From IMG/VR virus record IMGVR_UViG_3300034095_002552, positions 16,077-80,076 of that record: a stretch of DNA of 64,000 nucleotides; one strand, written 5' to 3'. Shown piece by piece: positions 24,096 through 64,000 of this stretch (within the stretch, counting starts at the first letter, position 1; every line of letters begins with the position of its first letter). The notes beneath the pieces were generated by a model, which worked only from the letters and a program-made list of their open reading frames with translations, searched no databases and was not told where the DNA came from. The position numbers were made by a program, and so were the translations under genes. Origin of the DNA: a virus.

Positions 24096-24383
24096 TTATT
24101 TTTTGCTTTCTTTAGGATTAAATAATTTTTTAAGTGCGTCCCAGACATTACTAGATTTAATTTTAGTTGCTGGTGGAGTTTGTGTTCCTCCAGCACCACC
24201 ACCCATCGGAGGCCCACCCATTGGAGGTCCGCCCATTGGAGGAGGCCCACCCATTGGAGGTCCGCCCATTGGAGGAGGCCCACCCATTGGAGGAGATCCG
24301 CCAGCAGGAGGCCCACCAGCAGGTGGAGGTGCTGGTGCATCTTCATTTAATTTGAATTTAACATAATTAACAAATGTTCTCAT
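24096..24383 (-). CDS. Gly/Pro/Met repeat protein with capsid-targeting-like N-terminus
   Basis: 95 residues. The N-terminus MRTFVNYVKFKLNE ends in L-N-E, the kind of site cleaved by T4-type prohead proteases after capsid-targeting sequences. Residues 18-66 are repeats of G-P-P-M-G-G units, and a short basic helix (VWDALKKLFNP) closes the protein. The DNA repeat is G/C-rich and unlike its AT-rich surroundings. It may be an internal head protein or a flexible linker protein. A TATAAATA motif stands 26 nt upstream. Confidence 0.68.
   Translation of the reverse strand: MRTFVNYVKFKLNEDAPAPPPAGGPPAGGSPPMGGPPPMGGPPMGGPPPMGGPPMGGPPMGGGAGGTQTPPATKIKSSNVWDALKKLFNPKESKK
24180..24320. repeat. G/C-rich tandem repeat encoding GGPPMGG units
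   Basis: About eight imperfect 15-18 bp units of the type CCCATTGGAGG(A/T)... lie within the minus-strand Gly/Pro/Met gene. Units are nearly identical at the DNA level, so length variation by slippage or recombination is expected. Confidence 0.85.
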
Positions 24384-31370: not shown

Positions 31371-32861
31371 ATGGCAGATAATCAACTTTGGGCATGGGGA
31401 GAGGGAAGTGCAGGACAATTAGGAGATGGAACGGAAGTAAACAAATCGTCTCCTGTTCAAGTCTCTGGTTCCAACTCCAACTGGAGAAGCGTTTTTAGTG
31501 GTCTTTTTCATACTGTTGGCATCAAAAAAGACAACACCCTATGGACTTGGGGTGTCAATTATGCAGGACAATTAGGAAATGGAACCATCGACAATAGCTC
31601 GTTACCGATACAAATTGGAGAATCTAATTGGAGCCAGTCTTCATGTGGTGGTTTCCATACAATAGCAATAAAGACTGATGGAACGCTATGGTCTTGGGGC
31701 GAAGGTTCGTTTGGCGAACTCGGAGACGAAACAACAACAGGTAGATCTTCACCAGTACAAGTCGGCAACCAAACGACTTGGAAGCAAGTTTCGAGTGGTG
31801 TTTTTACCGTTTCAGCAATAAAGACCGATGGAACGCTTTGGTCTTGGGGCGAAGGTCTTTCTGGACAAGTAGGGAACGGAGAAACAGGAGTATGGAGTTC
31901 GCCAGTACAAGTCGGCAACCAAACGACTTGGAAGCAGGTTGCTAATGGCTATAATCACACCGCAGCAATAAAGACCGATGGCTCGTTATGGGCTTGGGGA
32001 GAGAATTACTTGGGTCGATTGGGAGATGGAACGACAGATGATAGATCATCTCCAGTACAGATTGGGAACGAAACAAACTGGAAGCAAGTAGATTGCGGAG
32101 GCACACATACGGCTGCGATAAAAACGAACGGAACACTTTGGGCTTGGGGCGAAGGTTCAGATGGACAATTAGGAAATGGACAGACAAATTCTTTTTCTTC
32201 CCCGATACAGGTAGGAAACGGAAGCAATTGGTCGAAGGTTTCCTGCGGATCAGACTTTACCTGTGCTGTTAAGACCGACAAGACCATGTGGACTTGGGGA
32301 GAGAATTATAATGGTAAATTGGGAGATGGAACGACAGAAGACAAATCATCACCAGTCCAGATAAGTGGCGAAAAATATTGGGGAGATGTGGATTGTGGCT
32401 CTTACCACGCCATGGCTATAACTAGTAATCCTCCAGCAAGGTTCAATTTTGTACATCCGACTTATAAATTCGAAGTGGTTACATATACACCAGAAAGCCT
32501 AATAGCTCTGGCTCCTTATCCAGACTCATTAGAGCATCTGATTTTGAACCTACAGGCTCAGGAAGTAGTAATCAACAACAAAAGTTACAGGCATGGAGAT
32601 CAGTTCACGGAATTTGGTTCAAGAGCCATACGACTCAAACAATTGTATGTTGATTCCAGCAATCCCGTACTGAAAATAGTTTGTGACGCTGGTTACAGAT
32701 TTGAGAATAACAGATGCGTTCTTGATTGCCTTGAAAGCGAAACGGCATGCAGTGGCGTTTGTTCCGATCTGCTTACTGATAATGACAATTGCGGAGAGTG
32801 TGGTAATGTTTGTCCAGATGGATTTGCATGCACAAATGGAGTTTGTGCAACACCATCATAA
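31371..32861 (+). CDS. RCC1-type seven-bladed beta-propeller protein with Cys-rich C-terminus
   Basis: 496 residues. Seven copies of the RCC1 repeat (LWxWGEGxxGQLGDGT...SSPVQV...W..V.CG..H..AIKTDG) span residues 1-350, the number that closes a propeller. A 90-residue linking domain follows. The C-terminus has ten cysteines in the pattern C-S-x-V-C, NCGECGNVC, ACTNGVC, as in secreted proteins of Myxococcota-like bacteria. There is no signal peptide, so it is probably carried on the virion, perhaps as a receptor-binding or glycan-binding part. Repeats share long identical DNA stretches. Higher G/C third positions suggest transfer. Confidence 0.88.
   Translation: MADNQLWAWGEGSAGQLGDGTEVNKSSPVQVSGSNSNWRSVFSGLFHTVGIKKDNTLWTWGVNYAGQLGNGTIDNSSLPIQIGESNWSQSSCGGFHTIAIKTDGTLWSWGEGSFGELGDETTTGRSSPVQVGNQTTWKQVSSGVFTVSAIKTDGTLWSWGEGLSGQVGNGETGVWSSPVQVGNQTTWKQVANGYNHTAAIKTDGSLWAWGENYLGRLGDGTTDDRSSPVQIGNETNWKQVDCGGTHTAAIKTNGTLWAWGEGSDGQLGNGQTNSFSSPIQVGNGSNWSKVSCGSDFTCAVKTDKTMWTWGENYNGKLGDGTTEDKSSPVQISGEKYWGDVDCGSYHAMAITSNPPARFNFVHPTYKFEVVTYTPESLIALAPYPDSLEHLILNLQAQEVVINNKSYRHGDQFTEFGSRAIRLKQLYVDSSNPVLKIVCDAGYRFENNRCVLDCLESETACSGVCSDLLTDNDNCGECGNVCPDGFACTNGVCATPS
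31752..31936 (+). repeat. Near-identical repeat units within the RCC1 gene
   Basis: A 35-nt stretch at 31752-31786 recurs without change at 31902-31936, a 150-bp offset equal to one propeller blade, and flanking blade sequence is also nearly the same. This points to recent blade duplication or gene conversion. Confidence 0.85.
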
Positions 32862-37601: not shown

Positions 37602-38057
37602 TTATTCCTCTAGTCTTTTATTCCAAATGTGATTAATTTCAGTGCCTATAGACTTCATTTCATTTTCAGAAAAGAAATTGCTTTTTATCTTATTGCAAAT
37701 TAAGCAACAAAGAGCAATATTATCTAATGTATAGTCGCCATAATTGTCAATCCTGTCAATGCCTAATGACTCAACACCTAAGCCAATTTGAGATTTTATT
37801 TTGAACTTATGAATTTCTTTTTCTTTAAGTCCACAATAATGGCATTGTCTATCAGAGTTTCTCAACCATATTAAAAATTCTTCTTCTGAAATAAGAATTT
37901 CTGGGTTTCTTTTTCGTTTTCTTTTAAAATTAGAATTGTTTTTTAAATTTTTAAATTTTTGACAATCTTTGCAGACTAGCATTTTCCCAGAAGTGTACCG
38001 CAAATCAATATCTGTAGTATTACATTTTTTGCATGCCCATAAATCACCTTGACTCAT
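37602..38057 (-). CDS. HNH endonuclease
   Basis: 151 residues from the ATG preceded by GGAGGAAA; an upstream TTG is discarded. The N-terminal zinc ribbon is ACKKCNTTDID and CKDC. The C-terminal HNH core is CHYCGLKEKEI, SLGIDRIDNYGDYTLDNIALCCLICNKIKS, with two zinc CxxC pairs and the ID-x-N-x-Y-T-x-x-N motif. It may be a free-standing homing enzyme or part of DNA degradation. It is coupled to the Hel308-like gene downstream. Confidence 0.87.
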   Translation of the reverse strand: MSQGDLWACKKCNTTDIDLRYTSGKMLVCKDCQKFKNLKNNSNFKRKRKRNPEILISEEEFLIWLRNSDRQCHYCGLKEKEIHKFKIKSQIGLGVESLGIDRIDNYGDYTLDNIALCCLICNKIKSNFFSENEMKSIGTEINHIWNKRLEE

Positions 38058-38087
38058 TTTCCTCCACAAAAAATTTAAAATAAATCA

Positions 38088-38131
38088 GTCACGACAATAG
38101 AGGCTATTTTTTCGTCCTCTATTATCGTGAC
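38088..38131 (-). terminator. 16-bp inverted repeat with one mismatch
   Basis: GTCACGACAATAGAGG pairs with CCTCTATTATCGTGAC except at one C-A position, around a 12-nt loop containing a homopolymer run. It lies between two minus genes, 11 bp after the upstream stop, and is followed on that strand by TGATTTATTTT. Terminator or RNA-processing hairpin. Confidence 0.7.
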
Positions 38132-38141
38132 AATAAAATTA

Positions 38142-38396
38142 CTATCTATTTATTTCAAATCTTTTTTTATACTCTTTATTTACATGCTCATGCATAAAAT
38201 CTAACATGTCATATAAATCTTTTGGAGAATTTGCTGTTCCTAGCCAACGATCCATTTCTTTATTATTACAAACATAATTAAGAACTTCTGAAAGATCGCC
38301 AGAATATCTAAAGTTAAGCCTACTATGCAAAACCTTTAAATTCTCATCAGAAAGCCTGTAAAAATACTCTTTTAAAAACTGTTCCTGCTTCTTCAT
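38142..38396 (-). CDS. Unknown helical protein, 84 aa
   Basis: Helical, charged protein (YFYRLSDENLKVLHSRLNFRYSGD, DLYDMLDFMHEHVNKEYKKRF). The start has GAGGTTTATCC. Its ATG overlaps, head to head on the other strand, the ATG of the next plus gene (a shared CATG). No family was recognised. Confidence 0.68.
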   Translation of the reverse strand: MKKQEQFLKEYFYRLSDENLKVLHSRLNFRYSGDLSEVLNYVCNNKEMDRWLGTANSPKDLYDMLDFMHEHVNKEYKKRFEINR

Positions 38397-41087: not shown

Positions 41088-42002
41088 TTATTTTAATAGA
41101 AAAACTTTATTTTCATCCATTAAATCTTTTAGCTTTATCAATATAGAAGCTACAATTTGTCTAACTCTTTCTCTTGTTATTCCTAATTTTTTCCCAATAT
41201 GTCTTAACGAATAATATTCTTTTTTACAATTGATTCCAAATTTCATGCAAATAATAAATCTTTGCCTTTTATTGCATCGCTTTAGCAAAGATTCCACACA
41301 ATGATTTATGTGTTCCTTTTCGCAAAAATTACTCAAAGGATCTTCTATTACAGGATTAAGTTGTTCTGTCAATTGAATGCTTCTAAGCATTATGATAATC
41401 ATTTGTAGATTTTTAGGATAAGTTCCAAAATCATTAATGTTTTCAATTTCTAATTCTTTTTCAATATTTTTCACATCATTAAAAGCAAGAGTTTGAAAAA
41501 TTACAGTTGATATTTTTTGCAATTTTGAATAAACATTTGTCGGAACTTTAACAAAATATCTATTGTGAGATATGTATTTATAAATTCTTTTATAAATATG
41601 AAAAAGTACATAATAACTAAATTTAACATTCTTGCTTGCATCATAACCATTTATTGCCTCATAAATACCCAAAACACCTTCTTGAATGCAATCAGGCATT
41701 AAATCAACAGGGATATTTATTTTTTTTCCCATCCAATAAATCAATTTATAACAAGAAAAAACAAGTTTATCACAAGCCTTTATATCGCCATTTTTGGCAC
41801 TTTTAACAAGATTCATTTGCTCTTGTGTTGTTAATTTTTTTTTAAAATTTTCTTGTTCTATTTTGTCGAATGTGAAGTCACGATAAAATTTAATACCATA
41901 ATTTTTTTTTAAACTAAATTCAAAAAGTCTGTCTAATTTAGTTATTTTAAATTTTTGCCAATTTTTAAACGACTTGGTATTTCCCAATTTAACAGAACTC
42001 AT
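41088..42002 (-). CDS. Sigma-70-family RNA polymerase sigma factor (regions 2-4)
   Basis: 304 residues. Region 2 spans about 75-175 (LTTQEQMNLVKSAKNGDIKACDKLVFSCYKLIYW, PDCIQEGVLGIYEAINGYDASKNVKFSYYVLFHIYKRI). A region-3 segment is FVKVPTNVYSKLQKIS. Region 4 near the end is YYSLRHIGKKLGITRERVRQIVASILIKLK, the -35-reading helix-turn-helix. Unlike the gp55-like factor it has a full region 4, so it may direct middle transcription or replace the host factor. The AAGGAG site is good. The gene is bounded upstream by the uvsX terminator. Confidence 0.9.
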   Translation of the reverse strand: MSSVKLGNTKSFKNWQKFKITKLDRLFEFSLKKNYGIKFYRDFTFDKIEQENFKKKLTTQEQMNLVKSAKNGDIKACDKLVFSCYKLIYWMGKKINIPVDLMPDCIQEGVLGIYEAINGYDASKNVKFSYYVLFHIYKRIYKYISHNRYFVKVPTNVYSKLQKISTVIFQTLAFNDVKNIEKELEIENINDFGTYPKNLQMIIIMLRSIQLTEQLNPVIEDPLSNFCEKEHINHCVESLLKRCNKRQRFIICMKFGINCKKEYYSLRHIGKKLGITRERVRQIVASILIKLKDLMDENKVFLLK

Positions 42003-43319: not shown

Positions 43320-43358
43320 GTTAAACACCTCGGTAAAAATGTAATTATTTTTTTAAAA

Positions 43359-43389
43359 AAATAGGTGGAATCACTGACTCCACCTATTT
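43359..43389 (-). terminator. Rho-independent terminator after the gp32-like gene
   Basis: AAATAGGTGGA/TCCACCTATTT, an 11-bp stem with a 9-nt loop, followed on the minus strand by a seven-T run. It uncouples gp32 from uvsX transcription. Confidence 0.88.
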
Positions 43390-44415: not shown

Positions 44416-44436
44416 GATAGCACCTGCCTTTAAATG

Positions 44437-44552
44437 ATGGTTCGAGTAATGAATAATCACTACTCAATTAGTTAATGGTTCGAGCAATAAAACATTTATT
44501 GCCCAGTTAGTCAATGATTCGAGAAACAAACGATATGCTTCTCAGTTAGTCA
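44437..44552 (-). ncRNA. Leader of the gp32 mRNA: three tandem covarying hairpins
   Basis: Three 38-39 bp units lie between the gp32 start and its promoter. Conserved linkers (TGACTAACT before, CGAACCAT after, on the minus strand) alternate with hairpins of different sequence. In minus-strand RNA the stems are 9, 10 and 8 bp (GAGUAGUGA/UCAUUACUC; GGGCAAUAAA/UUUAUUGCUC with one G-U; GAGAAGCA/UGUUUCUC). Positions that mismatch on the plus strand become G-U on the minus strand, so the RNA is read in the gp32 direction. It may be a binding site for autoregulation by gp32. Confidence 0.78.
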
Positions 44553-44581
44553 TTTATAATCGTATCTATCATGTTGTGCAA
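44553..44581 (-). promoter_or_regulatory. Sigma-70-type promoter for the gp32 leader
   Basis: TTGCAC and TATAAA on the minus strand are separated by exactly 17 nt. Transcription would start within the first leader repeat, giving an mRNA leader of about 130 nt. Confidence 0.7.
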
Positions 44582-44597
44582 GATTAATTTTATAAAT

Positions 44598-45031: not shown

Positions 45032-45784
45032 CTATCTCCTAATGTTTGGCATGTTTTCTTGTGATGCGTTTCCCCAAAAAAGCTTTCCACCTTCTCTATC
45101 TTTTTGTGTCTCTGAAAAATTAACTTCATTGTCACCAATGAGGCCAACTGGGGCTTGAATAAAATATTTGTCGCTAATTTTTATTTCCTTAGACATATCA
45201 TCTATAATTGTATAAATCTCACCTTGAATAGAGCCAGATTTAGCATAAACTGGGTATTTTTTATCAACTGTTAGTTTATATCCTTTTGTCTTTACTTCAT
45301 GTAGCATTGGCAATTCTGGGGAAAAAACAACTGTTGTGATTGGCTTTTTTGACCTTACCACAGTTTGCTTTTGAATTGCCAATTGCTCATGAGGATAAAT
45401 TTCTCTTTTCTCTATTTGTTCATGAGGATAAAGTTCTATTTTCTCCACTTGTTCATGAGGATAAGTCGAATTTCCTACGCATGCTACAGACAAATCTTGA
45501 ACCGAAAAACCCACAGAGTGATCAAATGTGAACTTTTTGTTTTTTATCACAACGCCACCATCAGATTCTCTAAAGCTAATTGGTTTTTTGCTAAGTTCAA
45601 ATACTTCTACACTAGCGACAAATATATCTCTTCGAGCAAGTTGCCCCATTACAACGGATGCAAGCTTTTCCAAAGGTACATCCTCGAATGGATCTCCAAC
45701 CTTTTTTTTGATTGTTTTAACTTCATCTTTATTGTAATTCCCATCAACTTTTTCGTGATAAGAATAAATTACTTCGTAGCCCAT
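45032..45784 (-). CDS. Unknown protein with three YPHEQ repeats, 250 aa
   Basis: The N-terminal domain (1-100) reads MGYEVIYSYHEKVDGNY, VGDPFEDVPLEKLASVVMGQLARRDIFVASVEVFELSKKPISF, a well-packed alpha/beta unit that I recall from other phages without a function. Residues 109-141 are three 11-residue repeats starting YPHEQ. The C-terminal part is beta-rich (KYPVYAKSGSIQGEIYTIIDD). Strong GAGG ribosome site; it heads the transcription unit that leads to gp32. Confidence 0.76.
   Translation of the reverse strand: MGYEVIYSYHEKVDGNYNKDEVKTIKKKVGDPFEDVPLEKLASVVMGQLARRDIFVASVEVFELSKKPISFRESDGGVVIKNKKFTFDHSVGFSVQDLSVACVGNSTYPHEQVEKIELYPHEQIEKREIYPHEQLAIQKQTVVRSKKPITTVVFSPELPMLHEVKTKGYKLTVDKKYPVYAKSGSIQGEIYTIIDDMSKEIKISDKYFIQAPVGLIGDNEVNFSETQKDREGGKLFWGNASQENMPNIRR
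45383..45471. repeat. 33-bp tandem repeat within a coding region
   Basis: TTG(C/T)TCATGAGGATAA recurs at 45383, 45416 and 45449 with a strict 33-bp period, giving 11-residue YPHEQ units in frame on the minus strand. Confidence 0.88.

Positions 45785-62696: not shown

Positions 62697-64000
<1,304 letters not shown>

Follow-up and report, generated by a model that had tools for sequence, protein, structure and literature searches.

Can a single-stranded DNA-binding protein of the gp32 family be controlled through a leader made of simple tandem hairpins? In phage T4, gp32 acts as a repressor of its own mRNA: it binds a pseudoknot at the 5' end and then, cooperatively, a less structured stretch with UUAAA repeats that extends to the ribosome-binding site (PMC535899). 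How the protein, which has little sequence preference on single strands, recognises its own message is called unclear in the same work, which also does not decide whether autoregulation occurs in T4-like phages that lack the pseudoknot. The question is raised here by a gp32 locus in the window, i.e. the whole stretch of 64,000 nucleotides analysed, which is part of a virus record of 80 kb.

The gp32 locus and its predicted promoter

On the minus strand, the intergenic interval between the stop codon of an upstream open reading frame without known function (44598) and the gp32 ATG (44415) holds three repeated hairpin units (Table 1). Four further contigs carry the same leader and array with zero differences across 7 kb, and an assembly error in the array is therefore disfavoured. 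Beyond gp32 and its terminator-like hairpin lies a UvsX/RecA-like gene, which is adjoined by a gene for a phage sigma factor with Sigma70 regions 2 and 4 (41088-42002, minus strand). Two genes upstream of gp32, a 33-bp repeat (45379-45464) encodes YPHEQ three times within a 250-aa protein of no assigned function.

Taken as a hexamer match, TTGCAC-17-TATAAA is ordinary, and it is absent from the list produced by a general promoter scan. Transcription would start near 44546, so that hairpin 1 would begin 2-3 nt downstream. The block TATAAATTAATCTTGYA upstream of gp32 is common to six relatives of the same clade, its counterpart in the window being AAATTAATCTTGCA, and in the clade leaders a -10-like element follows, usually 17 nt on. 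No second exact copy of AATTAATCTTGCA occurs elsewhere in the window. We discarded the block as a general phage promoter, given this single copy and matches outside gp32 leaders that look like chance.

Table 1. Elements of the gp32 leader and its surroundings, in window coordinates.
Feature	Position	Strand	Basis
Putative -35 element, TTGCAC	44576..44581	-	Sequence and spacing
Putative -10 element, TATAAA, after a 17-bp spacer	44553..44558	-	Sequence; predicted start near 44546
AATTAATCTTGCA, part of the clade-conserved block (T)ATAAATTAATCTTGYA upstream of gp32; holds the -35 element	44577..44589	-	Alignment of seven leaders
Hairpin 1, 9 bp	44520..44544	-	Fold; R1 41.0 bits; 2-3 nt from the predicted 5' end
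Single-stranded linker 1, AAUCAUUGACUAAC, 14 nt	44506..44519	-	Mostly unpaired in the ensemble
Hairpin 2, 11 bp	44481..44505	-	Fold; R1 36.2 bits
Single-stranded linker 2, AACCAUUAACUAA, 13 nt	44468..44480	-	Mostly unpaired in the ensemble
Hairpin 3, 11 bp	44442..44467	-	Fold; R1 37.4 bits
Terminal weakly structured stretch, 26 nt, with one UUUAAA and the ribosome-binding site AAAGGCAGGUG (44431-44421)	44416..44441	-	Sequence and fold
gp32-family single-stranded DNA-binding protein, 337 aa	43402..44415	-	PF08804 above cut-off; PHROG 224 and 1192
Terminator-like hairpin with U tail, 3' of gp32	43355..43389	-	Fold, -18.2 kcal/mol

Several other features of the window were recorded. A very stable leader hairpin (38026-38170, minus strand; z -7.8) lies ahead of the gene for a 155-aa protein with HNH-like cysteine/histidine spacing and no Pfam match. 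Near the end of the window, a long 18-bp tandem repeat of about 34 copies (63292-63998) encodes a collagen-like Gly-x-Thr pattern up to the last positions. Repeats of 150 bp with WSWGEGSFGQLGN-like motifs occupy 31664-31999 and presumably resemble RCC1 repeats. Finally, a 33-bp tandem repeat at 24199-24317 is G+C-rich (66%) in an A+T-rich genome.

Three hairpins with different stems on the mRNA strand

The initial annotation had described three units of 38-39 bp between a promoter with a 17-bp spacer and gp32; we find the same arrangement, with three direct copies 38 and 39 nt apart between this promoter and the gp32 ATG. The units share their flanks, RACUAAYUG on the 5' side of the hairpin and CUCGAAYCAU on the 3' side. 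Their stems of 9-11 bp differ in sequence, and all of them pair, only on the mRNA (minus) strand, where the RNA folds into three clean hairpins. That all three stems pair had been claimed from the start and stands; the lengths first given (9, 10 and 8 bp) become 9, 11 and 11 bp with U-G/U-A closing pairs counted. Over positions 44437-44560, the fold z-score is -6.25 for the minus strand and -1.42 for the plus strand, and the structure is therefore strand-specific, belonging to the mRNA. The window holds terminators and other hairpins with better energies than the 145-nt leader, which stands out through its repeated units, whose stems differ yet pair, and not through fold energy.

No pseudoknot between loops and linkers is predicted: pairing of a loop with single-stranded sequence extends over 3 nt at most, which bears out the difference from the T4 pseudoknot originally put forward. 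We also considered, and rejected, an outer helix between promoter region and start codon (p 0.49 against other stretches of the locus); it is doubtful as well because its 5' arm would lie outside the mRNA, given the predicted start.

Covariation and transfer of the model between phages

Covariation was measured on seven hand-defined tandem units from the window, L027 and L078. In these, 96.8% of stem cells are paired, compared with 78.7% in shuffles, and 0 of 500 shuffles reach the observed value. Six of the nine stem pairs have changed on both sides, one of them taking six forms across the units (GU, AU, CG, GC, UA and UG), and the observed covariation values are reached by 0-2 of 500 shuffles. 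Sliding the register lowers pairing to 59% or less in every case. Of 5040 ways of assigning 3' to 5' arms, the real one scores best, by a count in which one base pair was entered too favourably. On the mRNA strand the seven units hold 14 G-U cells and 0 A-C cells; therefore selection acts on that strand, in keeping with the earlier remark that mismatches of the plus strand become G-U only in minus-strand RNA. The count pooled over all clades, 45 G-U against 37 A-C, is uninformative because the hairpin caller runs past the stem ends, and only the hand-defined tandem units were used.

As the structure was defined partly from the same seven units, the out-of-sample test of the model carries more weight. 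Run against 241 kb from 37 relative loci, the covariance model of the three window units gave four matches; the top three fall in the gp32 leaders of L027, L078 and L008, each of them weak when taken singly (E 0.036 to 1.1). Conversely, the L027/L078 model finds all three window units, at ranks 1, 2 and 5 over 294 kb. Between near neighbours, a stem double change from A-U to G-C separates L006 and L008, and one from C-G to A-U separates L026 and L030. Relatives show stem-preserving changes at the equivalent place, the point on which the initial annotation had made its reading depend.

Altogether, a selected RNA structure in the gp32 leader is well supported. The deciding evidence is cross-phage, not within-leader. 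Compensatory change within this one leader had been taken as strong evidence of selected structure: the structure holds across phages, and the within-leader evidence is moderate, because stem arms swapped among the three window units still give 22-25 of 27 pairs, against 27 of 27 in the real arrangement.

When the window was scanned with R1, the next best match after the three units had an E-value of 0.15. Among eight other records (23-595 kb), matches occurred in that of L078 alone and were its two gp32-leader units. Within the records searched, the units are thus restricted to gp32 leaders. Rfam 15 returned no family for the window leader at E up to 5 and, for 16 relatives, nothing at gathering score. 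In IMG/VR, the exact linker pattern recovered the same phage only, plus two apparent chance matches in unrelated sequence.

Hairpin number and leader motifs among relatives

The comparison drew on 68 viral loci encoding a gp32 relative and on two added loci close to L027. In the gp32 tree, the window (as L002) belongs to a supported clade (100/99) with L005, L006, L008, L023, L027 and L078. Downstream of the conserved block, the leader holds one hairpin in L005, L006, L008 and L023, two in L027 and L078, and three in the window. The window array is an amplified form of hairpins kept at the equivalent site in relatives, and it probably arose when a module that sister phages have once or twice was duplicated in tandem.

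As a group, gp32 leaders fall below a z-score of -2 in 47.5% of cases, against 11% for random windows of the same loci. The lone hairpins of L005, L006 and L008 are each non-significant against shuffles, and the most distant relatives, L065-L067, have no strong leader structure; we count both results against an operator. Comparable hairpins were not found in the cultured T4-like phages S-N03, P-SSM4, F86 and EC-F1.

Next to the ribosome-binding site, the wider family shares a short motif. ACUUU precedes this site in 28 of 40 gp32 leaders against 5 of 186 other genes, a contrast for which kinship makes p-values too small; counted by lineage, which is the fairer figure, it is found in 18 of 25 gp32 lineages against a shuffle mean of 1.9. 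It is often repeated in gp32 leaders, as in AACUUUUUAACUUUUAC of L005. The window's own leader lacks ACUUU, which also counts against an operator, and has one UUUAAA.

Other leader designs were encountered in the same set of loci. The 595-kb phage record LR756511.1 (L070), whose gp32 relative is 36% identical, has a pair of tandem hairpins upstream of gp32, 8 and 7 bp long and different in sequence, followed by a U-rich stretch (z -2.34). A different conserved block, TAAAG-N(14-18)-CCGATA or similar, is located about 70-150 nt upstream of gp32 in L016-L019, L020, L024, L025, L038, L039, L046, L063 and L081; it has sigma-28-like spacing in some loci and an overlapping TTG-N17-TATAAC in others. 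In L016 and L017, TAAAGUY is complementary to a downstream RACUUUA, with one double change. In L042 and L044, 72 nt upstream of gp32, the pairing GGGCCUCAU...AUGAGGC would cover the ribosome-binding site and beats all of about 200 control stretches; this leader may be of a sequestering type. The L046 leader forms a GACAGCACUU/AAGUGCUGUC hairpin (about -75 to -30) whose loop GUGGACACCA can pair downstream with UGGUGUCAC, possibly making an H-type pseudoknot nearer to the T4 form.

A candidate translational operator and its alternatives

We propose, with about even confidence, a translational operator in two halves through which gp32 would lower its own synthesis, the three hairpins being the structured half at the 5' end. 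Autoregulation is the leading interpretation because the leader is arranged like the T4 operator, with structure first and then a weakly structured, A/U-rich region that spans the ribosome-binding site. It is favoured as well by the strand-specific fold, the covariation and the two-way transfer of the models; by a supported gp32 clade whose members have one to three hairpins at a shared position; by the restriction of the units to gp32 leaders in the records searched; by ACUUU before the ribosome-binding site in the wider family, which parallels the UUAAA repeats of T4; and by the precedent of T4 and RB69, in which gp32 is known to repress its own synthesis and the leader is structured at its 5' end.

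That gp32 binds this structure and represses its own translation is what we infer, and the events could run as follows. The mRNA would start a few nucleotides before hairpin 1. When gp32 is in excess over single-stranded DNA, it would load preferentially at the hairpins and their 13-14 nt linkers, which, held open between the hairpins, would act as loading sites. Cooperative binding would then spread into the unstructured stretch past hairpin 3 and cover the ribosome-binding site, and less gp32 would be made. The single-stranded part of the operator would be spread over the two 13-14 nt linkers and the terminal 26 nt.

The main rival, which may coexist with a gp32 operator, is that the hairpins stabilise an abundant gp32 mRNA and that gp32 is not their ligand. 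A stem placed 2-3 nt from the 5' end would keep pyrophosphate from being removed and would shield the message from 5'-end-dependent attack by RNase E, as in ompA, with further hairpins adding protection. Hairpin 1 indeed sits at the predicted 5' end, stem sequence is free while pairing is kept, as expected if the helix alone matters, and structured leaders recur across the family with different hairpins. Stabilisation nevertheless leaves unexplained the conservation of the linker and the helix base (AAYUG on the 5' side, CGAA on the 3' side), the repeated units and ACUUU near the ribosome-binding site; moreover, in the records searched the units are found at gp32 only, though they would be useful for other abundant mRNAs. 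We regard it as rather unlikely. The conserved CGAA and AAYUG beside each helix could also be specific contacts for another ligand, either a different RNA-binding protein of phage or host, or the ribosome, for which the leader would be a standby platform raising gp32 synthesis. Many phage genes in the window are without known function and leave room for such a protein, but throughout the family the position is at gp32 only, and gp32 has a known precedent for acting on its own leader, which makes this improbable; a search for a RegA homologue gave no match, which weighs little as its control gave none either.

That the element acts as DNA is suggested by its overlap with the start-site region: it could be an operator around the start site, or its hairpins could be extruded in single-stranded DNA, as in N4 promoters and in the proposal for STAXI, which is likewise repeated and near SSB genes. 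This appears highly improbable in view of the 14 G-U and no A-C on the mRNA strand, an opposite-strand z-score of merely -1.42, stem sequences that vary between units, unlike those of repeated operators, and the lack of a STAXI match. To chance hairpins in AT-rich DNA, or an assembly artefact, we give next to no credence: judged by energy only, good folds are common in the window, but the covariation statistics and the transfer of models across phages refute chance, and the identical arrays of the four further contigs speak against an artefact.

Returning to the operator, a broader proposal is more tentative. In a large group of uncultured phages, some of them huge, gp32 might be controlled by a variable number of 5' hairpins together with a single-stranded motif. 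These leaders would make up a class of operators without pseudoknots: gp32 would recognise the repeated hairpin-linker modules, and the number of copies would adjust the threshold for repression. The window leader and its one- and two-hairpin relatives form a natural dosage series, with one protein family, one site and one to three modules.

Comparison with known systems

Autoregulation of gp32 by leader RNA is already known; an array of one to three covarying hairpins that lacks a pseudoknot is apparently new, as neither Rfam nor the open-licence papers searched contained one. The STAXI motif (RF01728), often located near SSB genes in two to three copies, has a pseudoknot fold and frequently UUCG tetraloops (PMC2864571). 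Repetition and neighbourhood are similar in the window, but its units are simple hairpins directly in the gp32 leader, and the STAXI covariance model, run on the window's record with E up to 10, matched nothing.

A close counterpart is the gene 32 translational operator of T4, T2 and RB69, composed of a pseudoknot and UUAAA repeats (PMC535899, PMC3014915). The gene family is the same, and both leaders begin with a structure and continue with a weakly structured, A/U-rich region that spans the ribosome-binding site. The T4 pseudoknot has no predicted counterpart in the window, where three tandem hairpins share their linkers; the sisters have two hairpins (L027, L078) or one (the others). The window has one UUUAAA in its terminal stretch, and its relatives have ACUUU-type instead of UUAAA-type repeats. 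The gene 43 (DNA polymerase) operator of T4 and RB69 (PMC3014915) is comparable in that a replication gene controls its own translation through a simple hairpin ahead of its ribosome-binding site; there is one such hairpin, and its loop is conserved. In the window, by contrast, stems and loops vary, while the helix base and the linker are conserved.
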